A stretch of 53,866 nucleotides of DNA, taken from positions 1 to 53,866 of IMG/VR virus record IMGVR_UViG_3300042894_002259; one strand, written 5' to 3'. Below the pieces are notes generated by a model. That model was not told the origin of the DNA, searched no databases, and worked only from the letters and a program-made list of their open reading frames with translations. Of the stretch, positions 5,752 through 53,291 are shown piece after piece. This DNA is from a virus. A program made the position numbers and the translations under genes. Position 1 is the first letter of the stretch; each line of letters begins with the position of its first letter.

Positions 5752-8631
5752 TTAAAAACCATCTTCGTGCCAAGAACAGACATCCAGATATGATTGAATT
5801 GTAAATCCCGGTTTGCAGGTCCAATCAAAATCTATACATTTTCTTGAAAAAGATTTAAAAATTAAAGGAGTTATTCTATCACTAAAATCCTTAGCATATT
5901 GCCAATTAATTGCATCATCATAAAGGTATTTCTCAGGTTCAATCAGCATTTTCTTAACACAGTCATCAAATTTAGCACAGTAATGTGCTCCAATATAAGT
6001 CTCAGGTCGTGTCAAATAGTTTGAATATTCTGCAAGTTCATATTTTCCAATACGAACTTTATCAATAAGACTATTATACTCCAAAGGAATATCAAACAAG
6101 CAATAAAGATCCTTTGTTTCTCCCCAATAAATGTGATCTCTTGGATGAAAAAGTAATGAAGGAAACATTCCTGCAACAAAAATATTATCATTTGTATGAT
6201 TTTTCATAAAAAATTCATACATACTCATCATACTATTGTAATTATATTTTTGATCGGATCTCATCTTTACAGAAAACTTTGTTTCGCAGAGTTTAATTCC
6301 GGCAAAAGATGTTGTAATCTGTAAATTTTTATTGCAAGTTCCCGGAGTTAATGGATATACACTTCTAACATATTTAACTTTTGGTGAGCGATAATGGTCG
6401 GGCCTATCATCCCCCCAACAAGAAACGATTATATTATTTACAAAAGGTACTCTTAAATACTCATCAATAATCTCATCAGTGTATTCAGTATATTTACCTT
6501 GAAGAATAATGTCTATTTTCTCACTTTCACTGACTTCAACAACATCTACACTATCTTCGGTTGAATTATTAAAGGTAAAGTAGATAATAAACTGTCCAAG
6601 ATAAGTATCTTTCCAATATTCTCTGAATCCGTAGAGGTAGGTATCATCAAAGATGTGTTCGGTAACTTCCTTACCGCTTCTTTCATAAACGTGAAGTAAG
6701 TTACATTTGGTGAGATATAAATCTCGGAATTCAATGAACCTCTCTATTGCATCTTTATGGTCATTAATGTGCCATTCTCCAGCACAGTGCTTGACATTTT
6801 TAATAATAAAATCGTAGTTTTCTTTCGTAAAAATAGAATACTCTCCACCTTCACAATCAATCTTTAAAAAATCAACTTGGGTAATGTTGTTTTCTTCAAT
6901 AATCTTTTTAAATGTTGTTGTGGAATATTCATTTCCATTATTTTCATAGATGTAGACACCCCTATCAGCAATCACAACACTATCACTTTCAAAGTCTGAA
7001 ATTGCCTTATTAATGAAAGTTACTGGACCATGCCCAACATTCTTTTTCAGAGAATGAATAAGAGTATTGGAAGGTTCAACACAATATACTTGCTTGGGAT
7101 TTTTACCTAAAATTGAATATGTAAATGAACCGCAGTTTGCACCGGCATCAATTACAATGTCTCCCGTCTTAATACGACAATGTTTCTCATATGTTCTCTC
7201 AATAAAATTCTCATTGGTAAACATCTGAGCATATTCTGGATCTGTTCCTCCCCAATCAAAATTGTCCGGAACCAAATAACTTGGAAAATACTTTTTAAGA
7301 TTGTCCAAAACCGAACCACGATACTCATTTTGCATATCGTGGTTCTCATACAAATCCTTAAAGATTAAACCAGACTCTTCGTTTTTACCCCACCACCAAC
7401 CAGAAACTGCTTTTTCAAACAGAAGACCATAAGTTCCAGGATATCCAACATCATGTTTAAGTGGAGGTAAATCCTTTTCTGTTAAATTCAAACCCTGAGT
7501 TGCTATAATATAAGCATCAGTCCACTGCTCTCTCTTACTATGAAACTTAGCAAGAAGATAATATGCTTCTGGACGATTTGGTAAGGTGTATACTGCATGT
7601 TGAAGTAAACCACGGGAAGTCAAATCTCTTGTTCCTTGCATTTCATAGCAAAAATGAGCCCATAATAGTGCCTCATAAGCAAGATTTGGATCTTCTGCTC
7701 TTTCTGCACATCTTAAAAAGTATGAAAGTGCAGGTGCAGTATGCCTTTGATTCCAATACCAAGCACCCACTTTGAGATTATTTTCGGCATTTTCTGGGTC
7801 ATTAGTATATTGTGTAAGAAGATACTCAATCTGATTCATCGTAAAATCTTGAGGTTCTTCTTCTTTTTCTTCTACTTTCTCAACTGCAAATGATTTCATT
7901 TGTTCTTTGTTTTTCCAATAATTTAGAACAGTTTCTCTTGACTCATAATGACCTCTTTTTTGATTATTTTCAACTTCCCCATCTTCCTCTGGGGAAAATG
8001 TAGTAGCAAACTTGATATCTTCTACAAATAAAGGAATTACGGAACCACCTTTATTAATTGTTTCAAATAAAATATTTTCAACCAGAGGAACTGCATAATT
8101 ATTAACACCGGGAATTTCAAGATGAAACTTTTTTTCGCCCCGACAATAGCTATCAATCAAGAGTTTTGCATAATCTCGTGTAAGAATATATGCAGTTGCC
8201 GCCCAATCATCCCATAATTTTTTTCTTATTTCAAATGTTTCATAGTTATCTCTGATTACTAGTAACTGCACATATAAGGAATCTTCGGGAATTGTTTCAA
8301 TAAACTCTTCCCATGTAAAGTCCCAATATTGAATGGTTTCAAGACTTAAATCGTCTTCACAAAAGAATCCATAATCTTCATCGGTTTCTTCGTACCATCT
8401 ACGAATTGCCTTAATGTGAGAGACTGCACAACCAATTGTCCCTCCATTCATTTGGTCTAAAAATTTTCCGGTAATTTCATCATCAGACTCAGAATATCTT
8501 TTGGATATAACTGCCTTTGGAGTAATTCCATATTCGGCAAACTGCTTCTCTAAATTTTGCTGCCTATCTACGCTTTCTTCTAATGAAACATAGTAGACTG
8601 ATGGAAAGTTTTCAAGTTTGTTATTTTTCAT
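5752..8631 (-). CDS. Four-part glycan enzyme: GT25 + TPR + FkbM methyltransferase + WavE-like
   Basis: The 959-residue protein contains four recognisable parts. Residues about 8-250 form a GT25-family glycosyltransferase (VYYVSLEESVDRQ start, FFCEDDLSL acidic motif). Residues about 265-400 are TPR-like helices. Residues about 480-690 form an FkbM-type SAM methyltransferase (VIDAGANCGSFTY motif I, FLKIDCEGGEY). Residues about 740-950 resemble WavE-type LPS synthesis proteins (ILQGKYTEYT, VSCWGDD, KMRSDQK). It lies 46 nt after the methyltransferase-GT25 gene, at the end of the island. Building and methylating a surface glycan is the likely role; the acceptor is unknown. Confidence 0.82.
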   Translation of the reverse strand: MKNNKLENFPSVYYVSLEESVDRQQNLEKQFAEYGITPKAVISKRYSESDDEITGKFLDQMNGGTIGCAVSHIKAIRRWYEETDEDYGFFCEDDLSLETIQYWDFTWEEFIETIPEDSLYVQLLVIRDNYETFEIRKKLWDDWAATAYILTRDYAKLLIDSYCRGEKKFHLEIPGVNNYAVPLVENILFETINKGGSVIPLFVEDIKFATTFSPEEDGEVENNQKRGHYESRETVLNYWKNKEQMKSFAVEKVEEKEEEPQDFTMNQIEYLLTQYTNDPENAENNLKVGAWYWNQRHTAPALSYFLRCAERAEDPNLAYEALLWAHFCYEMQGTRDLTSRGLLQHAVYTLPNRPEAYYLLAKFHSKREQWTDAYIIATQGLNLTEKDLPPLKHDVGYPGTYGLLFEKAVSGWWWGKNEESGLIFKDLYENHDMQNEYRGSVLDNLKKYFPSYLVPDNFDWGGTDPEYAQMFTNENFIERTYEKHCRIKTGDIVIDAGANCGSFTYSILGKNPKQVYCVEPSNTLIHSLKKNVGHGPVTFINKAISDFESDSVVIADRGVYIYENNGNEYSTTTFKKIIEENNITQVDFLKIDCEGGEYSIFTKENYDFIIKNVKHCAGEWHINDHKDAIERFIEFRDLYLTKCNLLHVYERSGKEVTEHIFDDTYLYGFREYWKDTYLGQFIIYFTFNNSTEDSVDVVEVSESEKIDIILQGKYTEYTDEIIDEYLRVPFVNNIIVSCWGDDRPDHYRSPKVKYVRSVYPLTPGTCNKNLQITTSFAGIKLCETKFSVKMRSDQKYNYNSMMSMYEFFMKNHTNDNIFVAGMFPSLLFHPRDHIYWGETKDLYCLFDIPLEYNSLIDKVRIGKYELAEYSNYLTRPETYIGAHYCAKFDDCVKKMLIEPEKYLYDDAINWQYAKDFSDRITPLIFKSFSRKCIDFDWTCKPGFTIQSYLDVCSWHEDGF

Positions 8632-8677
8632 TATTTTATGCGATTAGTAATTTTGTTCATTTTTATTAGTTTATTAA

Positions 8678-10021
8678 TCATTCCCTCATAAATTCTTCAA
8701 TTGTTTGAGTAGAACCAATATTTCTCCACCAATCTACATTATTGTCATAAGATTCATAATGAGCCTCGTGAATTGGTTGTTTCTTTCCCTCCTCTGTATT
8801 TGGGTCTAGATATGAAGGTAGGAAACTCAAATCTTCAGTGAATAAGGGAGCAGTATAGACTTTACCTAATGCTGAGAATATAATTGTTTCAATTACAGGA
8901 ACCTTTGCCCAATCTTCTCTAAGATGAATATCCTCACCTTTTACATCTAGATGAAACTTACCATCATAATAATATGTATCAATTAGTTTTTTGACAAATC
9001 CTCTTTTAATAAGATACGCACAACCAGACCAATCGCACCAACAACGATTGCGGAAACCAATCTTAAATGTATTAAACTCATACCTCAACCAAGCAAGTTG
9101 AACAATCTCCCAGTCATCAGGAAGACTATTATAAAAATCATCCCAAGTAAAGTTCCAATATTGGATTAAGTCCATACTTAAATCATCTTCACAGAAGAAA
9201 GCAACTTCCTCCTTAGTATTATCATACCATTCTTTAATTGCCTTCAGGTGTGAAGTAACAGGACCTCTACTACCGATAGTCAGATAATCAATATAATCTG
9301 ATATAATTTCGTGCTGAGTATCATCATACTTTTGAAAAATGTGACCTGTAATATTCTCAATACCAAACTGAGCAAACTTTTGATGTAGTTTTTCTCTTCT
9401 TTCGGTACAATACTCAACACTAATATAATGAACTGGAGGTAGATTTTTCAGTTTAGATGGATCTGGTTTATAGTGAATCCAGCACTTTTCATCGGAAATA
9501 AATTCAGTCAGCAATTCATTAACTGCTCGTTTTACACCTGGAAACCAATCGTATTCTTCGTGATAATAATCATGACCAGCAATAATTCCACCTGGTTTGA
9601 CTTTAGGATACCAAGCAATAATATCATCTCTAACATCCTCATACTCATGAGAAGCATCAATGAAAACAAAGTCAAGAGAATTATCCTTGAATTTATTTAC
9701 TGCCTCAAGAGAAGTCATCTTGAGAGGAAAATAATATTGCTCAACAGGTCTCATGTTGTCAATAAAAATATCATAGAGTTTTGGCAACTCTTTCATTCCT
9801 TCGTGCTCAACACTTCCTTCCCAAGTATCTACACAGAAGAACTCAATGTCCTTATTGGAATTGGCAATCTCAACGCACATATATGCTGCCGATTTACCTT
9901 TCCAACAACCAACTTCTACGAAACGACTTCCCGAAGGAAATCGTTTTGCAACTCTAGAGTAAAGATTGGGATAAGAAAACCAACCTTCACCAAAATTATC
10001 ACTTCCGCAAATATGTTCCAT
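8678..10021 (-). CDS. Class I methyltransferase fused to GT25 glycosyltransferase
   Basis: 447 residues. Residues about 10-190 are a class I SAM methyltransferase (FVEVGCWKGKSAAYM motif I, FVFIDASHEYED, GGIIAGHDYY), of the type found in sugar-modifying proteins. Residues about 200-430 form a GT25 domain (VHYISVEYCTERR, FFCEDDLSM), similar to the N-terminus of the next gene's product, so the two domains are probably duplicates. The ATG overlaps the upstream stop as TAATG. GT25 includes LPS galactosyltransferases and eukaryotic collagen galactosyltransferases. Confidence 0.85.
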   Translation of the reverse strand: MEHICGSDNFGEGWFSYPNLYSRVAKRFPSGSRFVEVGCWKGKSAAYMCVEIANSNKDIEFFCVDTWEGSVEHEGMKELPKLYDIFIDNMRPVEQYYFPLKMTSLEAVNKFKDNSLDFVFIDASHEYEDVRDDIIAWYPKVKPGGIIAGHDYYHEEYDWFPGVKRAVNELLTEFISDEKCWIHYKPDPSKLKNLPPVHYISVEYCTERREKLHQKFAQFGIENITGHIFQKYDDTQHEIISDYIDYLTIGSRGPVTSHLKAIKEWYDNTKEEVAFFCEDDLSMDLIQYWNFTWDDFYNSLPDDWEIVQLAWLRYEFNTFKIGFRNRCWCDWSGCAYLIKRGFVKKLIDTYYYDGKFHLDVKGEDIHLREDWAKVPVIETIIFSALGKVYTAPLFTEDLSFLPSYLDPNTEEGKKQPIHEAHYESYDNNVDWWRNIGSTQTIEEFMRE

Positions 10022-11679
10022 TATTTCAATTCAAGCAATACTGATTCTGGGTTTCCATACAATCTACCATCCACCGCAATCTTATGAGTGGGAATATATT
10101 TCTCAACCAATTCTGGCCAAGTACTTCCCATTTCATCGTGGAATTCAATTGCAATATATTTGAAGTCTACAAAACAACTTGCATTTTCTAGTATATTTCT
10201 TTCGGCACCTTCAATATCAATCTTAAGGAAATCGTATTTCGGAAGATTCTCTAAAGTCGTTGTAGGAATGTCGTTGAACTGTACATTATGATTATCGGAA
10301 TGCATATTATATCCACCTACATTTCCATCAGATTGACCCAATGAAATGAAGTCAGCACCATAATAAAGTGCTTTATTAATTACTTTAATACGATATTCGT
10401 TCTTAAATCTATCTTGAATAAAATTAAAGTTTACTGATACTGGTTCAAGAATCAAAGCAGTCTCCAATGATGAAATTTTATCAAACATAATTTTAGGAAC
10501 TTCCCCAGTGCATCCACCTACATCTAGAACTGATTTGATTTGTCTTTCTTTGAGAAATTCAATAATGTTGACATAAAAAGGTCGTGAAGTCCATTCTTCA
10601 TTTGTATAATAGATATGACCTTCTAATGATTCTGTAGGATATCCAGTGAATGGCGGAAATGATTCTGGTTGAGATTCTGATGTATTTTCAATCCCAATAA
10701 AATCCAATACAAATTCTTTGGATACCTTAACCAAATATGCTGCATTATCTTGATACCCAAAAGTAATCAGATAATTACCTTTATATTCTACCATACCAAC
10801 GGCAAATTCAATCTCGGCATTCATAAATGAGAATTGCCTTGATACTTTAACAATATTCCATTCCTTGTCCCAGACAATGAAACGATGACGATACACACCA
10901 TCTTTTCTTCCAGCGGCACTTTGAGTCAGATAAGTTTCGTGAGTCAAACAGAATCTATAATTGTCACCCAGAGGAATAATCTGAGAACCACCACGAAGAT
11001 CAGTGGTTCCAAAATCTTTCCAATCTCTTCTTAGAACAGTCTCTGTAGTATTCGTATCAATATTATATCTAACAATTTCAGTACCATTTGTCCATTTCAC
11101 ATAATGATATGGCATATCAAGAATAGGCATCCAGTTCTTGTTGCAATACTCTTGGTCTGGAGGTGGGGCAGGAATACGATGTTGACTTACTTCCTTTACA
11201 CCATTTTCGGTAAATTCAATTTCGGAAAGTTCCATACGACCCGTTCCAATCGTATCCAGATCCCTCCTTACTCCAGTCATATAGAGTTTATTGTTCCAAC
11301 GAACAATACGGCAATCTTCTAATCCCACAAAATCCCAAAGTTCTTTATCGGGAAAACTTGAGGTGTCTATACGATGATAAGATTTGATTCTCATATTATC
11401 ATCCATTTCGCACAGATAATTCCAAGTGCGAAGACGCCAATCGTTTTCTGGATGAATATAAACGAGAGGGCCCCAAGGATGTTCAAATTTTCTTTTTTCT
11501 GAATGATAAAGAGTGTAATTAATGTTTCTAAGATTAACTAGTAACTTATCTCCATCAAGATAAATTGAAGGGTTTGTGAGTGCTGGTCCCTTAAGTTCTT
11601 CGTGTGGAAGAATAAGTGGATGAATTGATCCTCCATTCTCTAAAGCAAGTTTTACAAAGTTCAGTTCATCTACTGCCAT
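10021..11679 (-). CDS. Beta-propeller glycosidase-like domain fused to FkbM methyltransferase
   Basis: 552 residues. The N-terminal ~340 residues show five-bladed glycoside-hydrolase-like features (ALTNPSIYLDGD; VGLEDCRIVRWNNKLYMTG; EIEFAVGMVEYKGNYLITFG), reminiscent of GH43/GH130-type propellers, but catalytic residues cannot be assigned by eye. Residues about 380-550 form an FkbM methyltransferase (VLDVGGCTGEVPK; FLKIDIEGAER). It has its own sigma-70-like and late promoters upstream (11701-11744). The role is probably processing and methylating a glycan; the propeller could also be a binding module. Confidence 0.75.
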   Translation of the reverse strand: MAVDELNFVKLALENGGSIHPLILPHEELKGPALTNPSIYLDGDKLLVNLRNINYTLYHSEKRKFEHPWGPLVYIHPENDWRLRTWNYLCEMDDNMRIKSYHRIDTSSFPDKELWDFVGLEDCRIVRWNNKLYMTGVRRDLDTIGTGRMELSEIEFTENGVKEVSQHRIPAPPPDQEYCNKNWMPILDMPYHYVKWTNGTEIVRYNIDTNTTETVLRRDWKDFGTTDLRGGSQIIPLGDNYRFCLTHETYLTQSAAGRKDGVYRHRFIVWDKEWNIVKVSRQFSFMNAEIEFAVGMVEYKGNYLITFGYQDNAAYLVKVSKEFVLDFIGIENTSESQPESFPPFTGYPTESLEGHIYYTNEEWTSRPFYVNIIEFLKERQIKSVLDVGGCTGEVPKIMFDKISSLETALILEPVSVNFNFIQDRFKNEYRIKVINKALYYGADFISLGQSDGNVGGYNMHSDNHNVQFNDIPTTTLENLPKYDFLKIDIEGAERNILENASCFVDFKYIAIEFHDEMGSTWPELVEKYIPTHKIAVDGRLYGNPESVLLELK

Positions 11680-11700
11680 AAAAATATGAATGATTTGGAT

Positions 11701-11708
11701 TATTTATT
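11701..11708 (-). promoter_or_regulatory. Late promoter AATAAATA
   Basis: Lies 21 nt upstream of the 552-residue gene's ATG on the minus strand, just downstream of a sigma-70-like promoter. The pair would allow early and late expression. Confidence 0.6.
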
Positions 11709-11715
11709 ACTTAGC

Positions 11716-11744
11716 ATTATAACTGATTTTTATATAAAAATCAA
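11716..11744 (-). promoter_or_regulatory. Sigma-70-like promoter (TTGATT-N17-TATAAT)
   Basis: -10 TATAAT at 11716-11721 (perfect), 17-nt spacer, -35 TTGATT at 11739-11744. The -35 overlaps the palindrome at 11724-11743. Confidence 0.6.
11724..11743. repeat. 20-nt perfect AT-rich palindrome
   Basis: A perfect 20-nt palindrome centred on ATAT lies between the DUF6165-like gene and the next gene. It may act as a weak terminator or a protein site, and it overlaps the -35 of the adjacent promoter. Confidence 0.5.
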
Positions 11745-11747
11745 GTT

Positions 11748-12104
11748 TCAATAAATCTTAATTTCTTTATAGTTTGAATTAGTCAGTTCATTTATTTCTT
11801 TTTTTATCTGTGCTCTTCGGTCATTTAATTTATAAACACTACGAGCAAGTTCAACGAACTCTTCATCAAATCTTTGTTCTTTCTCCAACTTTCTCAACTG
11901 ATCCTCTATTTTCCAAAGTTTTTCATTAACTTTCTTCAATCTCACTTCATATTCTAAAGTGTATTGAGTAAGAGTACTTTTAATTCTATAAAGTTCTTCC
12001 AATTCCTTTTGAACATATTCATCGTCGGTGAATAAAGATTTAATTTGTAAAATAGTAATCTTATCTAATAATTCACCGACTGATACTGGAATTGTAATCT
12101 TCAT
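11748..12104 (-). CDS. DUF6165-like coiled-coil protein
   Basis: 118 residues beginning MKITIPVSVGELLDKITIL, with the conserved SVGELLDKITILQIK block of DUF6165, followed by long charged helices (about residues 30-105) likely to form a coiled coil. DUF6165 members occur in glycan-biosynthesis neighbourhoods, which fits here, but no activity is known. The ATG overlaps the preceding stop (ATGA). It is the last gene before the palindrome and the 11716-11744 promoter. Confidence 0.8.
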   Translation of the reverse strand: MKITIPVSVGELLDKITILQIKSLFTDDEYVQKELEELYRIKSTLTQYTLEYEVRLKKVNEKLWKIEDQLRKLEKEQRFDEEFVELARSVYKLNDRRAQIKKEINELTNSNYKEIKIY

Positions 12105-13633
12105 AGATTAAATTGGTTTTTAATAGTTTCAATTAATTGTGCATTTTTAGAAACAACACCAAGACCAAAGCAATGAGTAAAGGTTACTTTAGGTAAATCA
12201 ATCTCTTCAAAAAATCTTTTTACTCCATATTCATTTCCATTATAATTTTCTACACAAGTATCGTGCATTAAAATTACACCATCATCATTTAAAAATTTAC
12301 TCCAGGTTTCAAAATCTTGTTTAATATCTTCATACTTATGACTTCCATCAATGTGAAGAATATCAATTTTTTTATCCCAGGTTTCTGCAACTTCGTTAAA
12401 GTCACCTTCAATAAGAGTTAGATTATCCTGAAGATGAAGTTTTTCTCTTTTTGTCGTTACAAACTGGTACTTAAGTCTTTGTTCATCGGTTCCAACAAAG
12501 GAATCACCAACAAAGTTATCAATACCATATACTTTACCAATTCTAGGAATTGCTAGTGAAAATGTGGAAAATCCCCAATCAACACCAAGGTCAACAGTAA
12601 CTTCTGGTTTCATATAAGAAACTAACCATTCGGCAAACTGACGATGGCCAGACCAAGCAGTTGCTGGAGTATCATCTAGATTAGTCAGGAAAAGTTTATC
12701 AATGGCATCCATTCTTTCCTTAAGTCTTAAAGTCTCTGGATTAAATCCCGAAGCAAAGACAATAATGTTTGGGTTCTGTGTGAGTTTACCGATGTTAAGT
12801 AGATGAGTAAATGCCTTACCCATAACATCTCCACCAACATTCATTGCCTCACTTACTGCATGAAAGGCATAGTTGGATGCTTGCTGAATATTTTGAGTGC
12901 TAATGAGAGCAATACTACACATCATAAACACATCAATTCTGGTGGGGTCAAAGTATGCTCTAGAAAGATTTAGATACTCCTGACCAAGTTCAAGTGCCTT
13001 ATTGAGGTTCTTGACTTCAAAATAATGCTTGAAAATAAACCAAAGGTAATAAGTGTTTGACTTATCTTTTTCAAACTCTCTTTCGCAAATAGACAGATAG
13101 AAGAGTTGCTTGTCTACAGTGTTATGAACATTTTTAGTAATCTTAATTGTAGTATCAACTGCACTCTCATTCAAATGTTCTTCAGTTGGAATGAAGACTG
13201 GACTTTCATGAACGGCATTTACCCAAGTATAGTTCTTGGTTCTATGAAACCGAGTATGAGCAGTTTGACCTGGAGTTGGTTCTTGGTCTCCTACCTTATC
13301 ATATCGTTCGTGCCTGAATGCTGTGAACTCTTCAGCAATCACATCAAGACCTTCTGGAAAGAACTCATCAACATCCTCATTAAAGTCTAAAGAAAATGCC
13401 CAGTCAGTCTTCACATAAGACAGTGCCAGATTTCTTACTTTGGAGAAATCAAATTCATCTCTCGTTTGTGGATGCTCATAGACTTCAATGCCTGCTTCCT
13501 TCAGTAGTTTTACTGTATTATCTGTGCTTCCAGTATCAACTACAACGGTATTTATAAACTTCTTGGAGATTTCAATAAATCTCCCAATGTTCTTCTCTTC
13601 GTTTTTAGAGATAGCATATAGTGTAATGTTCAT
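12101..13633 (-). CDS. GT2 glycosyltransferase fused to class I methyltransferase
   Basis: 510 residues from the ATG at 13633, which overlaps the upstream stop as ATGA; an upstream in-frame ATG at 13645 would give four more residues and a larger overlap. The N-terminal ~110 residues form a family 2 glycosyltransferase (LYAISKNEEKNIGRF; VVVDTGSTDNT; SLDFNEDVDEF). The middle is TPR-like. Residues about 320-505 are a class I methyltransferase (VTVDLGVDWGFSTF; DILHIDGSHKYED; ILMHDTC). It would transfer a nucleotide-sugar-derived residue and then methylate it. Confidence 0.85.
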   Translation of the reverse strand: MNITLYAISKNEEKNIGRFIEISKKFINTVVVDTGSTDNTVKLLKEAGIEVYEHPQTRDEFDFSKVRNLALSYVKTDWAFSLDFNEDVDEFFPEGLDVIAEEFTAFRHERYDKVGDQEPTPGQTAHTRFHRTKNYTWVNAVHESPVFIPTEEHLNESAVDTTIKITKNVHNTVDKQLFYLSICEREFEKDKSNTYYLWFIFKHYFEVKNLNKALELGQEYLNLSRAYFDPTRIDVFMMCSIALISTQNIQQASNYAFHAVSEAMNVGGDVMGKAFTHLLNIGKLTQNPNIIVFASGFNPETLRLKERMDAIDKLFLTNLDDTPATAWSGHRQFAEWLVSYMKPEVTVDLGVDWGFSTFSLAIPRIGKVYGIDNFVGDSFVGTDEQRLKYQFVTTKREKLHLQDNLTLIEGDFNEVAETWDKKIDILHIDGSHKYEDIKQDFETWSKFLNDDGVILMHDTCVENYNGNEYGVKRFFEEIDLPKVTFTHCFGLGVVSKNAQLIETIKNQFNL

Positions 13634-14202
13634 AATTTTTCCCAAGCAACATCGTATTTTTTATCAAGAGATTCAACTTGAGCATAACCAAGTTGTTTAA
13701 ATAAATTTTCAATCTCTTTTTCGTGAGAACCTAAATGCAGTTTCTCATACTCTATTTTGTTAATATCGTATTTAGTCCAATCTGTAGTTAATAATATCTC
13801 AGCATCAATACCTTCAATATCAAGAAGTAACCAATCTAATGTTGTAATCTCATATTTGTGAAATAATTGTTCAAGTGTTATACAAGGAATATCAAAACTT
13901 CTTAATCCTTCTGGGAAATAATACACTAATATATGTTCTTTAACTAATGATGCAACATGATACATTGGACCATCATTTTCATGATAATATAGTTTTACTT
14001 TATCATCAGGATATGATGGAACTTTTATCGCAATATTCTCTACAATAACATTCTCATAACAAGAATAGCAGTTTAGTAAACTACCAATATGAAGAGGATT
14101 TGCTTCTACAAATAAACCAAAATCTAATTCTTTATAGTTGTCTTTAAGATATTTTGATAGATGGTCGTCGCCTTTGTTAGACCCTATCTGCATCACTTTC
14201 AT
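13630..14202 (-). CDS. FkbM-family methyltransferase
   Basis: 190 residues from the ATG at 14202 (ATGA overlap); the longer frame to 14217 is less likely. The SAM-binding start MQIGSNKGDDHLSKYL replaces the usual D-x-G loop with QIGSNKG, and the FkbM-type segment LDWLLLDIEGIDAEIL is present. FkbM enzymes O-methylate sugars and related groups. It is tightly coupled on both sides within the glycan operon. The acceptor is unknown. Confidence 0.85.
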   Translation of the reverse strand: MKVMQIGSNKGDDHLSKYLKDNYKELDFGLFVEANPLHIGSLLNCYSCYENVIVENIAIKVPSYPDDKVKLYYHENDGPMYHVASLVKEHILVYYFPEGLRSFDIPCITLEQLFHKYEITTLDWLLLDIEGIDAEILLTTDWTKYDINKIEYEKLHLGSHEKEIENLFKQLGYAQVESLDKKYDVAWEKL

Positions 14203-14894
14203 AAAAATTCTTTCCAATCAATACAGGGAGATAATAAATCTGCTTGACAGTGTGTAGAATAACCGGGAATTGAAGATATAAGAACTCTTCCCTTTTGTGC
14301 TAATTCTAAAAACTTTTGGTGGTCTGCTGATGGTTCCACTCCTGTAGAATATTTATGATGAACCGAAAAGTCCTTCATAAGAGTTGAAAACTTCACAGCA
14401 AAAGTATTTGTGGTGGAAGGAGTTGCCATCCAGTGAGATGATTTTGAGTGTAAGACCTTGGTTCTAAACTCACTATAAAACTCCATATACTTATCACCGT
14501 GGTCATAAAGAGTTACATAATCAACACCAAGTTCAAATCCTTCCATCAAAATCTTATCCCAGTTTGGACGATGAACATAATCATCTTCAAGAAAATAAAT
14601 GATATCTTCTGCTGAATGATTTTGAGTTTGAATATACTTCAAAGTCTCAATAAAACTCTTTGCTTCTCCACCAGCATTTATAATATGAACATTCTCTTCT
14701 TGTGATAGGAAAGTATCTTCTATCTTACCATAGTGTTCATCGTAAATGAGTGTATAGTTTGTGGTTTCTGGATTGAGAGTGTTCTTGAAGTTTTGAAATA
14801 CCTTTTCCTTATCCCACCATTCTGGTCTTTGTTTTCCCGGACTTTCCTGTATCTTAGAATAATAACAGTGCCTTAGATATACATTAATTTTCAT
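14199..14894 (-). CDS. Putative glycosyltransferase (GT-A-like)
   Basis: 231 residues. IIYFLEDDYVHRP (about residue 98) is a DxD-like motif after a Rossmann-type N-terminus (INVYLRHCYYS), and VDYVTLYDHGDKYM plus SSHWMATPSTTNTF resemble acceptor-side segments of GT-A enzymes. The ATG lies in an 11-nt overlap with the upstream gene, with a GGAG Shine-Dalgarno. No GT family number can be given with confidence. Confidence 0.72.
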   Translation of the reverse strand: MKINVYLRHCYYSKIQESPGKQRPEWWDKEKVFQNFKNTLNPETTNYTLIYDEHYGKIEDTFLSQEENVHIINAGGEAKSFIETLKYIQTQNHSAEDIIYFLEDDYVHRPNWDKILMEGFELGVDYVTLYDHGDKYMEFYSEFRTKVLHSKSSHWMATPSTTNTFAVKFSTLMKDFSVHHKYSTGVEPSADHQKFLELAQKGRVLISSIPGYSTHCQADLLSPCIDWKEFL

Positions 14895-15684
14895 TCAGTT
14901 TCTCCAAATCGTATTCGTTCCACCAAGACTTCCAATCAAGGAAGAAATCCTTATCCCATTCTGTTTGCATATGAAGTGCTAGTGAGGGAATAGGAGTAAA
15001 GCAATAATATCCTCTTTCATAATAGATTTTATCTATACTCTCCATTTCCATCGTTTCACTCACTTCACTTGTTCCCATTTTATAAAACAAGTCCCAGTGA
15101 AGTTTTATAATACTACTATGGGTCATCAAAGTCACTGCTGGATGAATGTTGGTTCTCCAGTAACGGTCTTTCCCAACAACAAGATTACAGGGAACAGCAG
15201 TATTTTGAGGATCGTGATACTCTGCTGGTTTATTAAATGGAAAGATACTCGCAGGTTTTCCTAGATTACAACTAAACTGATTAATAGCATCTATCATCAA
15301 CTCAACAGAGTTTTGTTGATGAAGAAAGTCATCCTGAATAAAGTAGACCCAATCTTTTCCATAATCTCTGCCGTGTTCATAGCAACGAAGTATAGAAGGC
15401 ATTATACCATAAGTTTCAAGATGGGTCAAATTAACTTTGAACTTTGCCGTATCAATCAATCTTTGAAGAATATCTAGAAACTCTTGGTCTGAATGGTCGT
15501 CAAAAATTTGGAGTTCTATTTCATAATCTGGATATTGTTCTTGAGCATAGTTAAGACTATCAATTACAGAAAAAATACATCTTGATGATACTTCTATCTT
15601 TGGTGCTTCACAATATCTTTCGTGACTATCATCTCGGTTTCCTTTTGAATGAGACTGAAGAACAACTAACAAATGAGTTTTCAT
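14884..15684 (-). CDS. Putative glycosyltransferase
   Basis: 266 residues. An N-terminal VVLQSHSKGN strand, LQIFDDHSDQEFLD, and WVYFIQDDFLHQQN (a DD motif at about residue 117) indicate a GT-A nucleotide-sugar fold. Similar proteins occur in cyanophage glycan clusters. It overlaps the sulfotransferase gene upstream by ATGA and the next glycosyltransferase by 11 nt. Donor and acceptor unknown. Confidence 0.75.
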   Translation of the reverse strand: MKTHLLVVLQSHSKGNRDDSHERYCEAPKIEVSSRCIFSVIDSLNYAQEQYPDYEIELQIFDDHSDQEFLDILQRLIDTAKFKVNLTHLETYGIMPSILRCYEHGRDYGKDWVYFIQDDFLHQQNSVELMIDAINQFSCNLGKPASIFPFNKPAEYHDPQNTAVPCNLVVGKDRYWRTNIHPAVTLMTHSSIIKLHWDLFYKMGTSEVSETMEMESIDKIYYERGYYCFTPIPSLALHMQTEWDKDFFLDWKSWWNEYDLEKLNEN

Positions 15685-16463
15685 AAATCAAACTTGGAAT
15701 ATAGTTTTACATTTTCTTCTCCTATTATATCAATAGGATTTTGTGAGATTTTAGATAACTTTGGACGAATGGTATGAAGGTCTTTTAGTCCCCAGGCTTC
15801 GTCTTTCTGTTCTCCACAAGCATTCTCAATCTCATTGAAGTTATTGTCTTGAGGAGAAACTTCTAAAAACTCATAGACCTTATTGAGTTCTTCTTGTGGA
15901 TTAGAAATGAGTTGACTATATTCTACCAGATGAACCCAGTCTGGATACTTTGTGAGACCATATACCATACTCTCATAAGATGGAGCAACATAATATCTCC
16001 AAATATAATCAGCACGATTGTTATTTGTGATTGGAAGATTGTCTCGTCTCAAATGATTATCAATAAAATTATCTTCGTGCTTGGTTCTTTCTATCAGTGA
16101 GATATAAGATGTAAGAACTTCTGGAATAGAACGATAAGTTGCTACAATCTTTGGTTTGTTTGAAAGAAACATTTGAACCGTATCAAGGTTCTTACCCCAA
16201 AATCTGTGCTTGTCTAGGATTGTTGACTTTGGAATATGATTATAAAAGTTCGCAAGAACTGCCTTGTAGACATTATAAGATATTGCTTTACGGTCAAAGG
16301 TAAACTGCTGGTCTACTTTATTGAATGATTGCTCAATATCAGTCACCACATCACCTAATGGAGATGTTGGTGATACATAAATGTCTGGATGTTGATTGAG
16401 TATAGACCCTAATAATGTAGAACCACTTCTTGGAAGTCCTCCAAGAAAATATAATGTCTTCAT
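15681..16463 (-). CDS. Sulfotransferase family protein
   Basis: 260 residues. The N-terminal YFLGGLPRSGSTLLGSIL is the PAPS 5'-phosphosulfate-binding loop, and VATYRSIPEVLTSYI matches the 3'-phosphate-binding region (Arg and Ser). It would transfer sulfate from PAPS to a carbohydrate or protein, which is plausible for decorating a phage or host surface polymer in seawater. A TCTAAATA late-like box lies 20 nt upstream, so it may start a late sub-operon of glycosyltransferases. Confidence 0.85.
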   Translation of the reverse strand: MKTLYFLGGLPRSGSTLLGSILNQHPDIYVSPTSPLGDVVTDIEQSFNKVDQQFTFDRKAISYNVYKAVLANFYNHIPKSTILDKHRFWGKNLDTVQMFLSNKPKIVATYRSIPEVLTSYISLIERTKHEDNFIDNHLRRDNLPITNNNRADYIWRYYVAPSYESMVYGLTKYPDWVHLVEYSQLISNPQEELNKVYEFLEVSPQDNNFNEIENACGEQKDEAWGLKDLHTIRPKLSKISQNPIDIIGEENVKLYSKFDL

Positions 16464-16483
16464 AATATTTTGATTGTTATGAG

Positions 16484-16491
16484 TATTTAGA
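16484..16491 (-). promoter_or_regulatory. Late-promoter-like box TCTAAATA at RCC1 gene end
   Basis: Overlaps the TAA stop of the RCC1-like gene and lies 20 nt before the sulfotransferase ATG. The same stop-overlapping arrangement occurs at 21300 and 23209 behind the other two RCC1-like genes. Confidence 0.45.
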
Positions 16492-17665
16492 TGCCTGGGT
16501 CTTGGTAGGTGAGTGCTGCTGTATGAGCACTATCTCCAGAACTCACTTGTTTCCAGTTGGTTCCTCCGGCAAATGTGGTGACTGGAGTGGATACATCAGT
16601 TGTTGCTGCGTTTCCAAGTCTTCCATTAGCACCATAACCCCAAGTCCATAAGGTTCCATCGGTCTTGATTGCTGTTGTGTGATTAAATCCAGAACTGACT
16701 TGTTTCCAATTGGTTCCTCCAGCGAATGTGGTGACTGGTGTGAATTTAGTGGTAAATGGCGGCTCACCAGTTCCAAGTCTTCCACTAAAAGAAAACCCCC
16801 AAACCCATAGAGTTCCATCGGTTTTGATTGCTGCTGGAGAGTATCCAGCAGCACCCACTTGTTTCCAGTTGGTTCCTCCAGCGAATGTGGTGACTGGAGT
16901 AGATATATCGCCATTACTATTGTTTCCAAGTTGACCACTAGATCCTTTACCCCAAAGCCAAAGAGTTCCATCGGTCTTGATTGCTGCTGTAAACTCAAAT
17001 CCAGAACTCACTTGTTTCCAGTTGGTTCCTCCAGCAAATGTGGTGACTGGAGTGGATCTACTAGTTGTGCCAGCATTTCCAAGTTGTCCACTAGCATTAT
17101 TACCCCAAACCCATAAAGTTCCATCGGTCTTGATTGCTGCTGTCAAACCATTTCCAGCACTTACCTGTTTCCAGTTGGTTCCTCCAGCAGATGTGGTGAC
17201 TGGAGTGGATCTATCGGTTGTTGCTGCGTTTCCAAGTCTTCCATTAGCACCATAACCCCAAGTCCATAAGGTTCCATCGGTCTTGATTGCTGCTGTCAAA
17301 CCATTTCCAGCACTTACCTGTTTCCAGTTGGTTCCTCCAGCAAATGTGGTGACTGGAGTGGATCTATTGGTTGTTGATGCATTTCCAAGTCTTCCATAAG
17401 TTCCCGAACCCCAAACCCATAAAGTTCCATCGGTTTTTATTGCTGCTGTATGCGCGGCCCCACCACTGACTTGTTTCCAGTTGGTTCCTCCAGCAGATGT
17501 GGTGACTGGAGTGGATCTATCGGTTGTTGCTGCATTTCCAAGTATTCCAGTACCTCCAGCACCCCAAGTGAATAAGTTCCCATCACGAAACAAATCAGCA
17601 GGCACAAAGACATCATCAAAACTATAGACAACTCCATTTTCCGTAAAGTTATAAAATGTAGGCAT
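16487..17665 (-). CDS. RCC1-like seven-repeat beta-propeller protein (copy 1)
   Basis: 392 residues: a short N-terminal lead (MPTFYNFTENG) and seven tandem repeats of about 51 residues, each running TDGTLW-WG...LGN...STPVTT.AGGTNWKQV...TAAIK. That is the RCC1/BLIP-II repeat, and seven copies fit a closed seven-bladed propeller. Such proteins in cyanophages are probably virion adhesins, but no activity is proven. It lies inside the glycan island, between the YkgJ-like and sulfotransferase genes, unlike the other two copies in the fibre region. Confidence 0.85.
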   Translation of the reverse strand: MPTFYNFTENGVVYSFDDVFVPADLFRDGNLFTWGAGGTGILGNAATTDRSTPVTTSAGGTNWKQVSGGAAHTAAIKTDGTLWVWGSGTYGRLGNASTTNRSTPVTTFAGGTNWKQVSAGNGLTAAIKTDGTLWTWGYGANGRLGNAATTDRSTPVTTSAGGTNWKQVSAGNGLTAAIKTDGTLWVWGNNASGQLGNAGTTSRSTPVTTFAGGTNWKQVSSGFEFTAAIKTDGTLWLWGKGSSGQLGNNSNGDISTPVTTFAGGTNWKQVGAAGYSPAAIKTDGTLWVWGFSFSGRLGTGEPPFTTKFTPVTTFAGGTNWKQVSSGFNHTTAIKTDGTLWTWGYGANGRLGNAATTDVSTPVTTFAGGTNWKQVSSGDSAHTAALTYQDPGI

Positions 17666-17689
17666 TAGGGACCTCTAAAGACTTGGAAA

Positions 17690-18043
17690 CTACTCTGATA
17701 TCATAATTGGAGTATTCATTTTCTCTCCCCACTTTATAAACCAATCTTTTACATCAGCAGATATCTTTTTATTATTTATTCCAACTGCCTTTAGATACTG
17801 CCCGTTCTCATTTTGTTCTACAGAGACCAATACATTACACTTATCAGGTCTCATTTCTTCTGGAAGTAAATGTTGAGACCAAGCACACTGATAATTCCTA
17901 CAGACTTCTGGTCGTGCCTTATGAACTCCACAACCACCTTCTTCTAGAAATCTACAAGATTGACTACACCCAAACTTCCATCCAAAAGCATCGCCCACCA
18001 ACCAAGAACAGCAGGCAGTACATTCTCCACACTCACGAAACAT
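17690..18043 (-). CDS. YkgJ-like cysteine-cluster protein
   Basis: 117 residues from the ATG at 18043, chosen because AAGGAGG lies 7 nt upstream; the longer frame to 18151 is mostly the overlapping gene. The N-terminus has C-x2-C-x2-CC (ECGECTACC) and further Cys in CSQSC, GGCGVH and VCRNYQC: eight or more cysteines matching the YkgJ/UPF0153 family of predicted Zn- or Fe-S-binding proteins. Its role inside a glycan cluster is unknown. Confidence 0.82.
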   Translation of the reverse strand: MFRECGECTACCSWLVGDAFGWKFGCSQSCRFLEEGGCGVHKARPEVCRNYQCAWSQHLLPEEMRPDKCNVLVSVEQNENGQYLKAVGINNKKISADVKDWFIKWGEKMNTPIMISE

Positions 18044-18713
18044 AATCACCCTCCTTAAAATAATAACTATAATTATTAAACTCAAAAGGATTTTCTTCAA
18101 ATAATACATCATTATATAAAGTCTTTGGATAGCAACTATCACTATCACCAATCCATCTTTCCTTTTCCATTCTACACTCAGAGTTTAAGTATCGTGATTT
18201 GATTGTATTAATATAGGAAGCATTTGCCCACCAAAAATTTCCCATATAAGCATAAGTCTTATCATTTGGTATTAAAGAACCATCGGCACAAATACTTGGC
18301 CCAATAGTTCCCAAATGAGAACCAACACAAGTATAAGTATCTAGATACTTTATACATTCCTTCCATTTATCAATCACAAAATATTCCATCATTAATCTCC
18401 AAGATTGAACCGAAAGTTCATTCTTTGTTGCTCCTTTGGTATGAAAATAAAGAACCTTATAATCTGGATTATTCTTACAGAAATCATTAAGTGCTAATAA
18501 GGTGGTTTTTTCAGTTCCCCAATCTTCCTCCTTATTATACTTAACTATTACTTTATCAGGAACATTAAAAAGTTCTTGACTTCCATTTACACTAAAATAA
18601 GTATAATCAGCATTTTGAAGTAATCCTGAAGCATATAATCTATGTAATTGTTGCTGGTAAATGAAAGCACCTATTCCCATTTGTCCTATATGATAAAAGA
18701 TTGCTAGTTTCAC
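18033..18713 (-). CDS. Putative glycosyltransferase-like protein
   Basis: 226 residues from a GTG start at 18713 that overlaps the preceding stop (GTGA). IFYHIGQMGIG at the N-terminus, VLYFHTKGATKN, and YMGNFWWANASYI resemble proteins annotated as glycosyltransferases in giant-virus and phage glycan clusters. No DxD motif is firmly visible. Its coupling into the operon supports a glycan role. Confidence 0.6.
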   Translation of the reverse strand: MKLAIFYHIGQMGIGAFIYQQQLHRLYASGLLQNADYTYFSVNGSQELFNVPDKVIVKYNKEEDWGTEKTTLLALNDFCKNNPDYKVLYFHTKGATKNELSVQSWRLMMEYFVIDKWKECIKYLDTYTCVGSHLGTIGPSICADGSLIPNDKTYAYMGNFWWANASYINTIKSRYLNSECRMEKERWIGDSDSCYPKTLYNDVLFEENPFEFNNYSYYFKEGDYVS

Positions 18714-19495
18714 GAATGATACACTCCACCATTTTCACCGGACATTCCTTTGACCATCGTAAGACCAAGATTAGGAATATCAATAACATTCTTCTTATTG
18801 ATAAAACGATAAAGTGAATGTTCTACATCAGTTCCGGCAGTAAACTGTATCATTTTTTCCATATAAGTAAATGCTTTTTCAAGTGCTTCTATAGTATCAG
18901 TAAATAACATTCTATCAAAAGACCAAAGACCCGTAATCATCATACCCTTTGCTCCATAGAGATAAGCATAAACATTCTCAAGTTCTTTTTCATAGTTTTC
19001 CATTTCTTGTGAAAGGTAGTCATACTTTTTAATTACATACTTATTCTCAAGGAACTTACTTTGATAATCTTGAATATCAAAATCATCATTCAGTAAATAT
19101 CTACCAGTCAATTTGAATACTCTTTGACTATCATTAAAAATATTATGCTTTTGTATTACATAAAGAGTATTCAGTAATCCTCTTGTTTCTAATAGTGATT
19201 TGCCGTATGTAATCAGTTCTGGTCTTGCCTCAAGATTTTCATAGATTTGTTTGAGAACTGGTTCATCATAAAACTCCAGAAACAAATCCGTTTTTTCTTT
19301 GAGAATATCTTTTTGGTTTTCATCAATTGATTTAGAAGAACACTCAAATAAAACCACATAAGAATTATGAACTTTCTTACGAATACACTCAATCGTTTCT
19401 AAGGTTTGCTCAAATCTTTGTTGCTCATCATAGGCACTAAAATCTTTCTCTTGAAAGTGTTTGAGTGCCGAACCAACTAAAAATAAAAATTTCAT
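18710..19495 (-). CDS. Uncharacterised glycan-island protein (possible glycosyltransferase)
   Basis: 261 residues. The KLTGRYLLNDDFD segment (about residue 128) resembles the K-x-(S/T)-GRY motif seen in some surface-polysaccharide proteins, and the N-terminal FLFLVGSALKHF strand is Rossmann-like. I do not recognise a named family. It is coupled by 4-nt overlaps on both sides (to the oxygenase gene upstream and the GTG-start gene downstream), so it is part of the same translational unit. Confidence 0.6.
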   Translation of the reverse strand: MKFLFLVGSALKHFQEKDFSAYDEQQRFEQTLETIECIRKKVHNSYVVLFECSSKSIDENQKDILKEKTDLFLEFYDEPVLKQIYENLEARPELITYGKSLLETRGLLNTLYVIQKHNIFNDSQRVFKLTGRYLLNDDFDIQDYQSKFLENKYVIKKYDYLSQEMENYEKELENVYAYLYGAKGMMITGLWSFDRMLFTDTIEALEKAFTYMEKMIQFTAGTDVEHSLYRFINKKNVIDIPNLGLTMVKGMSGENGGVYHS

Positions 19496-19950
19496 AAGTA
19501 ATCCGTGTTAAAACTAATAATAATTCGTTCTTCAGTTTCTTCTTCTGTATAATGAACCAAATCACTTGAAAAGATAACCAATAGTCCTGGATAAGGATGA
19601 ATTGAAGTATCTGGAAATATCAAAGGAGTGCTTCCAGAAATATAAAATGCTCCACTTACAATACTTTCTTCGTGCTTATGTGCCTTGAGTTTATTTCCTG
19701 CTTGTGAGATATTGAACCAACTATTGATAAACTTGAGTGGAGGAATATCATACTTATTACAATATAATCTAACATATTGTTTGAAAATATTCCGCAATCC
19801 AGTCAGTTCTGGATACATTAGAATAGGCATTCCATAATTATAAGTGGAAAACCCTTTAGTGACAAGTCCGTGAGAACTTGCTTCTATCTGTAAAAGTGTG
19901 TTCTTAATCGTATTTAGATTGAGAAAGGATAAGTTATATTCCTCTATCAT
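19492..19950 (-). CDS. 2OG-Fe(II) oxygenase family protein
   Basis: 152 residues. INSWFNISQAG, then HKHEESIVSGAFYISG (His91 and His93), PGLLVIFSSDLVHY (His133) and ERIIISFN (Arg142) reproduce the putative 2OG-Fe(II) oxygenase pattern common in cyanophages: metal-binding His residues, then the Arg that binds 2-oxoglutarate. It would hydroxylate a substrate using O2 and 2-oxoglutarate. The ATG lies in a 17-nt overlap with the upstream gene and has a GGAG Shine-Dalgarno. The substrate is unknown; a role in decorating fibres is only inference. Confidence 0.83.
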   Translation of the reverse strand: MIEEYNLSFLNLNTIKNTLLQIEASSHGLVTKGFSTYNYGMPILMYPELTGLRNIFKQYVRLYCNKYDIPPLKFINSWFNISQAGNKLKAHKHEESIVSGAFYISGSTPLIFPDTSIHPYPGLLVIFSSDLVHYTEEETEERIIISFNTDYL

Positions 19951-21274
19951 TTAGAAACTCTCCCAATTGCTTCAAAGGTTCGTCCCAGTTTCTTGGTTTC
20001 TTTTGCTTGAAGAGATGAACATTATCACCATACCACCAAGACTTTCCTGTTGAACTTGTCCATACATAATATTCCATAATTGGCACAAACACACAAACTT
20101 TCTTACCTTGTGCTGCTGCGATATGAGCAATAGAAGTACACGAAGTAATCACCAAGTCCATTTGAGATACAATTGAAAATGTATCCGTAAAGTCACGATT
20201 TGGAATATCAAAAGTCTTTACATCATAACCTTCTGGTGGTACTTGGTCTGGTAGTTGTAGGGAATATAAAGATGCTGGAGTTTTAGAAAGAATATCAAAC
20301 AAAGGTTCTGGTTGAATAGAACGAAAATGTGCCTGCTCAAATCCAGAACCAGAGTTCCAAAACATTCCAATCTTATAGTTTTGGTCTTCTTGTAGATAAG
20401 AGTATTGCTTTTGTTTTTCTGGTAATGGGTTTAGATAAGGAGTTTGACCCAAATCTTCTACTTTTAGATTGAGATAATAAGGTAGAGCAAGAGCATAAAC
20501 CCAGCAGGCATCTTCTGGAAACTCTGGTTTATCGTAGATACACACAGAGTGAAACCCATTATAGTTGAAGAGTTTCACCAGTTCTTTTCTTGTAGAAGTC
20601 CAGATTGGTTTCATACCAAGTTCTTTCAGGTGCTTCATAAAACGAATATGAATAACCTCATCACCAGCACCACACTGACTGTCTATGATAATCGTTCTTC
20701 CAGGCTCTGGTGTTCCGTCCCACTTTGGAAATGGTGGAAGTTGTCGGTTCTTATATGCTTCCACTTCTCCTGCCTTGAGAAAGTGTTGAAGTCCTGTGCG
20801 AATATCATCCTTCCTGAAGTAATGACCCGATAAGTTGTGATATGCTTTTCTTTCTATCTCAGGTGGCAGTTTCTTTTTGAGTAAATCAAATAAAAGTTTC
20901 TCTGCTTTATTATTTTGACCTAAAGCAGAATATGAAAATGTTTCCTCTAAAAGAAGTTCGGTATCTTGAGGATTTTGTGATTTGATTTTTGATATTTGAG
21001 TGATTGCTTTTTCTGGATAGTTATTTTGATTGTATGCGTTGATAAGATTTTTTGATGTTGTATATTTTTCTTCTTTGGTCTTTGTGAGTTTGAGTGCTTT
21101 CTCGCCATAAGTAATCGCATTTGAGAAATCTTTAATCTCAAAGAAAATCTTTGCTACATCATCATATTGCTGAAAAGTTTCTGCTCTCTTTCCAAATGCC
21201 GAAAGAACTTGTGTTGTGAGTTCTTTTTCGTTGAATGAATACAGTGTTTTTGTGACCAACTCAAGGGGGTTCAT
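19934..21274 (-). CDS. TPR protein with GT9/GT41-like glycosyltransferase domain
   Basis: 446 residues. Residues about 1-170 are TPR-like helical repeats (DFSNAITYGEKALKL; NNYPEKAITQISK; GQNNKAEKLLFDLL). Residues about 185-440 are a GT-B-type domain (IIIDSQCGAGDEVIHIRF; KIGMFWNSGSGFEQ; DLVITSCTSIAHIAAAQGK), resembling heptosyltransferase and O-GlcNAc-transferase-like enzymes. TPR plus GT41-like domains often act on proteins, so protein glycosylation is possible. It is the first gene of the island, with a late promoter 26 nt upstream. Confidence 0.82.
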   Translation of the reverse strand: MNPLELVTKTLYSFNEKELTTQVLSAFGKRAETFQQYDDVAKIFFEIKDFSNAITYGEKALKLTKTKEEKYTTSKNLINAYNQNNYPEKAITQISKIKSQNPQDTELLLEETFSYSALGQNNKAEKLLFDLLKKKLPPEIERKAYHNLSGHYFRKDDIRTGLQHFLKAGEVEAYKNRQLPPFPKWDGTPEPGRTIIIDSQCGAGDEVIHIRFMKHLKELGMKPIWTSTRKELVKLFNYNGFHSVCIYDKPEFPEDACWVYALALPYYLNLKVEDLGQTPYLNPLPEKQKQYSYLQEDQNYKIGMFWNSGSGFEQAHFRSIQPEPLFDILSKTPASLYSLQLPDQVPPEGYDVKTFDIPNRDFTDTFSIVSQMDLVITSCTSIAHIAAAQGKKVCVFVPIMEYYVWTSSTGKSWWYGDNVHLFKQKKPRNWDEPLKQLGEFLNDRGI

Positions 21275-21299: not shown

Positions 21300-21307
21300 T
21301 ATTTATT
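21300..21307 (-). promoter_or_regulatory. Late promoter AATAAATA at RCC1 gene end
   Basis: Overlaps the stop codon of the RCC1-like copy 2 gene and lies 26 nt before the TPR-glycosyltransferase ATG. Confidence 0.6.
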
Positions 21308-23195: not shown

Positions 23196-23208
23196 CGGTC
23201 TTTTTAGG

Positions 23209-23216
23209 TATTTATG
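23209..23216 (-). promoter_or_regulatory. Late promoter CATAAATA at RCC1 gene end
   Basis: Overlaps the TAA stop of RCC1 copy 3 and lies 13 nt before the DUF4376-like ATG. Confidence 0.6.
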
Positions 23217-35596: not shown

Positions 35597-35608
35597 TTTC
35601 TCTACCTC

Positions 35609-36280: not shown

Positions 36281-36282
36281 TT

Positions 36283-52727: not shown

Positions 52728-53291
<564 letters not shown>

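Follow-up and report, generated by a model that had tools for sequence, protein, structure and literature searches.

A conserved cyanophage tail-locus cassette and a proposed system for glycosylation and sulfation of RCC1 propellers

The IMG/VR virus record IMGVR_UViG_3300042894_002259 (53,866 bp, analysed over its whole length and called here the window), which derives from a freshwater cyanophage, carries a compact island of glycan-related genes at positions 5752–21274, whose conserved part we propose to be a decoration system for the RCC1 propeller proteins encoded within and beside it. The island comprises 15 genes, all on the minus strand; neighbours either overlap or are separated by no more than 68 bp (Table 1). 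The GC content is about 0.32–0.35 in much of the island versus about 0.40 in the tail genes. The psbA gene (52753–53864) is split into two open reading frames (ORFs) about 200 bp apart and is approximately 90–95% identical to the psbA exons of Synechococcus phage S-SRM01 (Kyanoviridae), the closest named relative. This match identifies the window phage as a cyanophage, as had been supposed, and its psbA is probably interrupted by an intron.

Pfam matches were counted against curated cut-offs, PHROGs were searched in addition, and AlphaFold models of the O and M proteins were compared with known structures by Foldseek. These analyses bear out the original prediction of a decoration island in a phage genome, with 15 genes in place of the predicted 14. 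All five predicted methyltransferase domains were recovered (FkbM, Methyltransf_21, in A, C and F; Methyltransf_24 in B and E), as were the sulfotransferase (I), the 2-oxoglutarate (2OG)-Fe(II) oxygenase (N) and the DUF6165 protein (D), all of them above the Pfam cut-offs. Both GT25 domains are present, one found in A by Pfam and the other in B by PHROGs alone (phrog_2835, 2.7e-35). About eight glycosyltransferase-like domains had been expected, and seven are supported, namely two GT25, one WavE, two GT2, O and M; G and L are possible additional glycosyltransferases, but as members of known Pfam glycosyltransferase families they are unsupported (no firm match for G, no family for L). The YkgJ-like protein K has the CxxCxxCC motif, whereas its match to PF03692 (E 0.004, 18.2 bits) falls under the cut-off of 23. 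The single RCC1 propeller noted before is J; two more, P and R, had been overlooked just outside the island. Each of the three has seven RCC1 repeats (PF00415/PF25390 above cut-off), and the conserved unit runs on past the former boundary at 21274 to position 24402.

Table 1. Genes of the island and of the adjoining tail locus in the window.
Gene	Coordinates	Strand	Product and features	Remarks
A	5752..8631	-	959 aa; GT25 + FkbM methyltransferase + WavE-like	Pfam, PHROG 2835/8156
B	8678..10021	-	447 aa; Methyltransf_24 + GT25	Pfam (Methyltransf_24), phrog_2835 (GT25); variable
C	10021..11679	-	N-terminal domain of unknown fold + C-terminal FkbM methyltransferase	Pfam; variable
D	11748..12104	-	DUF6165	Pfam above cut-off
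E	12101..13645	-	514 aa; GT2 + Methyltransf_24	Pfam; core
F	13630..14217	-	FkbM methyltransferase	Pfam; accessory, patchy presence
G	14199..14894	-	231 aa, conserved; invariant EDDY motif; possibly GT-A	Alignment; core
H	14884..15684	-	GT2-like	Pfam
I	15681..16463	-	Sulfotransferase (PF13469/PF00685)	Pfam; core; adjoins RCC1 gene J
J	16487..17665	-	RCC1 propeller, 7 repeats	Pfam; within enzyme operon
K	17690..18043	-	CxxCxxCC (YkgJ-like) cysteine-cluster protein	Internal ATG start at 18043
L	18033..18713	-	Conserved, fast-evolving; possible glycosyltransferase	Alignment; core
M	18710..19495	-	GT-A-fold protein	Core; no Pfam glycosyltransferase match
N	19492..19950	-	2OG-Fe(II) oxygenase, 2OG-FeII_Oxy_5 (PF13759)	Above cut-off; usually present
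O	19934..21274	-	Tetratricopeptide repeat (TPR) + GT-B; proposed protein glycosyltransferase on RCC1 propellers	31 bp after P
P	21306..22532	-	RCC1 propeller, 7 repeats	Directly upstream of O
Q	22542..23267	-	DUF4376-like, tail-fibre-associated	PF14301 below cut-off; phrog_1141 'tail fiber protein'
R	23212..24402	-	Third RCC1 propeller, 7 repeats	
S	24395..25282	-	Collagen-like tail fibre with Peptidase_S74 chaperone	Pfam, PHROGs; upstream neighbour of cassette

The gene set had been read as sufficient to build a surface polymer on the virion or the host. No polymerase, flippase, ABC exporter or lipid-carrier initiating transferase was found by Pfam among the 15 island proteins, within this 53.9-kb fragment, and a capsule or O-antigen biosynthesis island was rejected on this ground. 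The polymer reading is further unsupported because the core is tied gene by gene to RCC1 in a tail-fibre locus and because O resembles protein O-glycosyltransferases. Nucleotide-sugar synthesis families were likewise absent among the 15 proteins by Pfam, in agreement with the expected scarcity of such genes in the island; a reading of host donors only is not generalisable, since S-SRM01 islands are annotated with a nucleotide-diphosphate-sugar synthase and an epimerase.

With O alone as a query, 77 viral loci of the window clade were retrieved. The recurrent order, fibre-RCC1-Q-RCC1-O-N-M-L-K-RCC1-I-(H)-G-(F)-E-D, is present in about 70 freshwater contigs, which places the gene set far beyond chance, and it is kept down to approximately 50–60% protein identity. 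The core order of S-SRM01 matches as R/Q/P/O/N/M/L/K/J/I/G/E/D; in contrast to the window, H, F, C, B and A are missing at the island position of S-SRM01, where an epimerase and other genes are found instead (PMC8557907). The island and the RCC1 genes thus form one conserved tail-locus cassette. The RCC1 genes are embedded in the enzyme operon, since the conserved order interleaves them with enzymes, in S-SRM01 as well. Across the related cyanophages the core is retained, but the presence of A, B, C and F varies, and the distal genes A–C (5752–11679) could have another role or target. Fibre types switch upstream of the cassette while the RCC1-O pair stays. When close relatives with an O identity of 80% or more are compared, median identity is 56–63% for the RCC1 proteins, versus 80–87% for O, I, G, N and M; L, Q and D also diverge much faster than these five. 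A term search of the S-SRM01 paper (PMC8557907) gave no mention of RCC1 or sulfotransferase.

The linkage of O to RCC1 extends well beyond the window clade. Two further independent O queries were taken from marine virus AG-345-E08 and Synechococcus phage BUCT-ZZ01; both are about 25–27% identical to the window O, the three clades are mutually divergent to the same degree, and none of the queries held RCC1 information. In the window clade, 75/77 loci have an RCC1 gene upstream of O and on its strand (median gap 28 bp); the counts are 13/13 for the AG-345 clade (median gap about 1.1 kb) and 71/80 for the BUCT clade (58 bp). When one locus was kept per 90%-identity group, RCC1 stood beside O in 69 of 74 phage lineages. 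Six individual exceptions begin at or near a contig edge.

The sulfotransferase follows the same association. Relatives of I adjoin RCC1 or O in the AG-345 clade, where the sulfotransferase follows the third RCC1 gene as in the window, in the BUCT clade and in a Bdellovibrionales-order locus (L431). The I protein is 49% identical to a sulfotransferase near O in the BUCT-clade locus L375, and 38% identical to another that adjoins RCC1 in a genome of the Bdellovibrionales order. Three phage loci (L340, L386, L392) and two metagenome-assembled genomes (MAGs; L399, L401) encode proteins in which an O-like domain and a sulfotransferase are fused. The L401 fusion also holds a methyltransferase and a GT41/OGT-family domain (PF13844, E 2.5e-62) separate from the O-like domain.

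The BUCT-clade RCC1 partner can exceed 50 repeats. Giant RCC1 proteins (at least 50 repeats, more than 2,400 aa) lie directly upstream of O in loci L325, L333, L336, L338 and L341, several of them cut by the locus edge.

Copies in cellular genomes offer a separate test of this linkage. Among about 85,000 species genomes scanned, O was matched in four, all with RCC1 immediately upstream. In the order that includes the Bdellovibrionales MAG G003, O was found in 11 of 141 genomes and was adjacent to RCC1 in nine of these, while strong RCC1 matches occur in just 56 of the 141. Signals of the twin-arginine translocation (Tat) pathway were assigned to all eight O-adjacent RCC1 proteins with an intact N-terminus and to none of 27 RCC1 proteins from O-less genomes (Fisher p = 4e-8), which mostly have lipoprotein signals. 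A loop motif, [S/T][S/T]P, reaches a median of 0.71 per blade in O-adjacent RCC1 proteins versus 0.17 in those from O-less genomes (p = 2.5e-5). Within O-bearing genomes, Tat-type RCC1 proteins encoded away from O are also motif-rich, and Sec-type ones are motif-poor. Because the Tat pathway exports folded proteins, the propeller could be modified by a cytoplasmic enzyme such as O once it has folded and while it still awaits export.

In the phylum of L401 (a Patescibacteria MAG), O was found in only one of 380 genomes, so the MAG copies there may be viral. In four Bdellovibrionales-order genomes (L424, L425, L426, L428) very long fibre-like genes flank the O-RCC1 pair and possibly encode MAT-type fibres, the phage-tail-like adhesive fibres of the predatory bacterium Bdellovibrio (PMC10769870); the likeness lies in these long flanking genes. 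A text search of the MAT-fibre paper returned neither RCC1 nor glycosyl- terms.

The AlphaFold model of O (pLDDT 88.6) shows an N-terminal TPR superhelix joined to a GT-B domain, and TPR profile matches were found in the O family. The best PDB matches by Foldseek are AtSPY (SPINDLY) and O-GlcNAc transferases (OGTs), followed by GT9/WaaC; the GT9 structures 3tov and 2gt1 (E ~1e-4, TM 0.36–0.40) stand behind SPY/OGT by E-value. SPINDLY and OGT, members of GT41, glycosylate proteins, and they share with O the succession of a TPR superhelix and a GT-B domain; a further likeness is the L401 protein, in which O-like, GT41 and sulfotransferase domains are fused beside RCC1. The window O differs in its shorter TPR region (about five helical pairs), its identity of only about 14%, the absence of a PF13844 match and its seeming dedication to a neighbouring propeller. 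By this modelled architecture O resembles protein O-glycosyltransferases, and transfer to Ser/Thr is predicted.

Another parallel is provided by the TibC/AAH autotransporter heptosyltransferases, in which a cytoplasmic GT-B enzyme glycosylates one partner adhesin (PMC4358343). The same working is proposed for O, WaaC is among the O matches, and genes of the lipopolysaccharide (LPS)-sugar type lie near some O genes; the TibC/AAH substrate is a beta-helix autotransporter, whereas O contains a TPR domain and is paired with an RCC1 propeller. About 20 of the 80 BUCT-clade loci (e.g. L374, L375, L347, L394) have genes resembling those for ADP-heptose synthesis (PfkB-cytidylyltransferase, NAD-epimerase, cupin) no more than 8 kb away from O. 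Together with the GT9-like features of O, they make ADP-heptose one candidate donor.

We propose, with a probability of roughly 0.6, that the conserved genes D, E, G–I and K–O together with the RCC1 genes J, P and R constitute a dedicated decoration system for RCC1 tail propellers. The domain content, the conservation of the cassette, the linkage of O to RCC1, the fusions of O with sulfotransferases, the fold class of O and, in the Bdellovibrionales order, the Tat and motif correlations are computed results; we infer the substrate, linkage, sugar, site, order of steps and virion location in the window phage as follows. The RCC1 propellers would fold in the host cytoplasm, where O would bind them through its TPR superhelix and attach the first sugar to a Ser or Thr; the most likely site is the [S/T][S/T]P loop, which recurs in the majority of blades. 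M, H and E, and perhaps G and L, could extend or vary the glycan; I would sulfate the glycan or the protein, and the methyltransferases and the oxygenase N could modify it further. Glycosylation and sulfation would both be cytoplasmic and would precede virion assembly or export by Tat; the decorated propellers would then be built in close to the fibres, where they would serve as adhesins or shields. Diversification of the glycan would fall to the variable A–C end.

Several observations weigh against this proposal. The Foldseek TM-scores of O against SPY/OGT are low (~0.3), perhaps because of domain arrangement. PF13844 (GT41) was matched neither by the window O nor by any of 22 relatives, and the GT9 family PF01075 gave only sub-threshold matches in single relatives (E 0.003–0.006). 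Three phage lineages (L352/354, L390/391 and L393) truly have no RCC1 directly upstream of O, so RCC1 need not be the sole partner of O; what they have in its place is a giant repeat protein (L352/354), a Gly-rich protein (L390/391) or an RCC1 gene elsewhere. Two of the 11 O-bearing Bdellovibrionales-order genomes also have no adjacent RCC1, and one of these, G040, encodes Tat-RCC1 proteins elsewhere. Many RCC1 phages lack O, and since RCC1 without O is thus common, the dependence would be that of O on RCC1, not the reverse. The Tat and lipoprotein assignments are simple regular expressions, and a pattern similar to [S/T][S/T]P is common in bacterial RCC1 proteins. The genomes and contigs are phylogenetically related, and the p-values of 4e-8 and 2.5e-5, which overstate independence, are indicative only.

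The giant protein in L352/354 (2575 aa, L354:99-7826) contains ILTSSDGVTWT-type repeats and DUF6242 and is possibly another propeller acting as an O partner.

An unlikely alternative is that the enzymes modify LPS or other surface glycans of the host, for receptor masking or superinfection exclusion, and that the RCC1 proteins are lectin-like receptor-binding proteins linked to them through a common tail and host-interaction locus. The WavE and GT25 domains of A and the GT9-like features of O recall LPS enzymes, roughly one in four BUCT-clade loci has PfkB plus cytidylyltransferase and epimerase genes at most 8 kb from O, and the RCC1 genes evolve fast. It leaves unexplained, however, why O adjoins RCC1 across very divergent phages and bacterial genomes, why O is fused to sulfotransferases (in one case also to GT41), and why all O-adjacent RCC1 proteins have Tat signals.

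It is quite improbable that the main targets of the island are other virion proteins (collagen-like fibres, baseplate or capsid) and that RCC1 is a bystander or serves as a scaffold. Such a role is suggested by the neighbouring collagen-like fibres, whose hundreds of GTQ/GLQ triplets offer Thr as a possible O-glycosylation site, and by the Gly-rich protein that replaces RCC1 in L390/391; yet the change of fibre types upstream of a constant RCC1-O pair argues against it. The triplets also contain no Lys and almost no Pro, which speaks against collagen-type Lys/Pro hydroxylation with GT25 transfer; collagen-type lysine hydroxylation with GT25 action on the fibres was rejected after 727 Gly-X-Y triplets in three fibre proteins were found to include no Lys and only seven with Pro. 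A heterogeneous auxiliary island, in which host-derived glycan genes have gathered in a variable region and share no substrate, would fit the variation of A, B, C and F, the epimerase at the island end of S-SRM01 and the other glycosyltransferase genes elsewhere in that genome, and the low GC content, but is very improbable given a core order kept down to 50–60% identity, parts of which recur in marine and non-cyanophage contexts.

Among enterobacterial phages, RCC1 proteins have been detected in virions of W70 (PMC11370258) and GAP32 (PMC5259590) by mass spectrometry, and phAPEC6 encodes eleven of them (PMC7247149). A role in DNA encapsulation or ordering has been suggested for those of W70 (PMC11370258) and phAPEC6 (PMC7247149). 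These phages resemble the window phage in having several RCC1 copies; in contrast to the window cassette, RCC1 is not linked to glycosyltransferases in the parts of their accounts considered here. The RCC1 genes described here have tail-fibre and glycosyltransferase genes as neighbours, which seems to favour a function as adhesins over DNA ordering. Phage RCC1 proteins were earlier guessed to condense DNA; the present evidence points to decorated surface adhesins. The N-terminal regions of the RCC1 proteins were considered as anchors common to other virion proteins, and this was dropped, as no non-RCC1 protein in the loci has them. The open-access literature searched yielded nothing relevant on RCC1 with glycosylation in phages or Bdellovibrio.

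A broader generalisation, to which we give somewhat less than even odds, is a previously undescribed protein-decoration system common to phages and predatory bacteria. Folded RCC1 propellers would be glycosylated by the TPR/GT-B enzyme at an [S/T][S/T]P loop in most blades and then sulfated by a co-operating, often fused, sulfotransferase; mounted on tail fibres in phages, or exported folded via Tat in Bdellovibrionales, they would serve as fast-evolving, sugar-bearing adhesins. Dedicated adhesin glycosylation is already known from TibC/TibA (PMC4358343), and the enzyme, the substrate and the setting differ here. If the generalisation holds, phages are equipped with cytoplasmic machinery dedicated to glycosylating and sulfating the adhesins they encode, the same module is at work in predatory bacteria, and it offers a natural platform for sulfated, glycosylated propeller proteins. 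O and RCC1 make a named and directly testable candidate enzyme-substrate pair.

Among the other core genes, M was resolved by structure: its model (pLDDT 85.9) matches alpha-1,3-galactosyltransferase and glycogenin by Foldseek (E 1e-6, TM ~0.5), while a PDB sequence search with M and G profiles gave chance matches alone. Relatives of G occur in marine AG-345-E08 (47% identity) and Microcystis phage Mel-JY01 (38%). L has a median identity of 60% between close relatives, diverging as fast as the RCC1 proteins while its neighbours stay conserved, and is duplicated in some relatives; the K-L pair is also present in AG-345-E08. The start of K rests on the start codon and on where homology begins. 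The I protein bears a conserved N-terminal motif, G-L-P-R-S-G-S-T-L. E is syntenic in S-SRM01 (64% identity), and N is 84% identical there. Relatives of H lie near O in the AG-345 clade, in 27 BUCT-clade loci and in MAGs L399 and L401, and a copy of D lies near O in L399.

At the variable end, S-SRM01 and most other relatives lack A or retain little of it, and B has no counterpart in the syntenic S-SRM01 island. A GH130/GT108-like assignment of the N-terminal domain of C, guessed by eye, was dropped, as it had no PDB sequence match. An ORF at 1516–2250 probably encodes a GIY-YIG-type homing endonuclease (by eye) and is 59% identical to an ORF beside the other glycosyltransferase island of S-SRM01. 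On the opposite side of the cassette, further fibre genes follow S. Three consecutive proteins at 34844–36981 (250, 223 and 232 aa) share matches to phrog_24074/8510 and look like structural paralogues, and the adjoining gene at 36983–46684 encodes a collagen-like tail protein of 3233 aa, in which about 475 Gly-X-Y triplets were counted; most are GTQ or GLQ, and none contains Lys.

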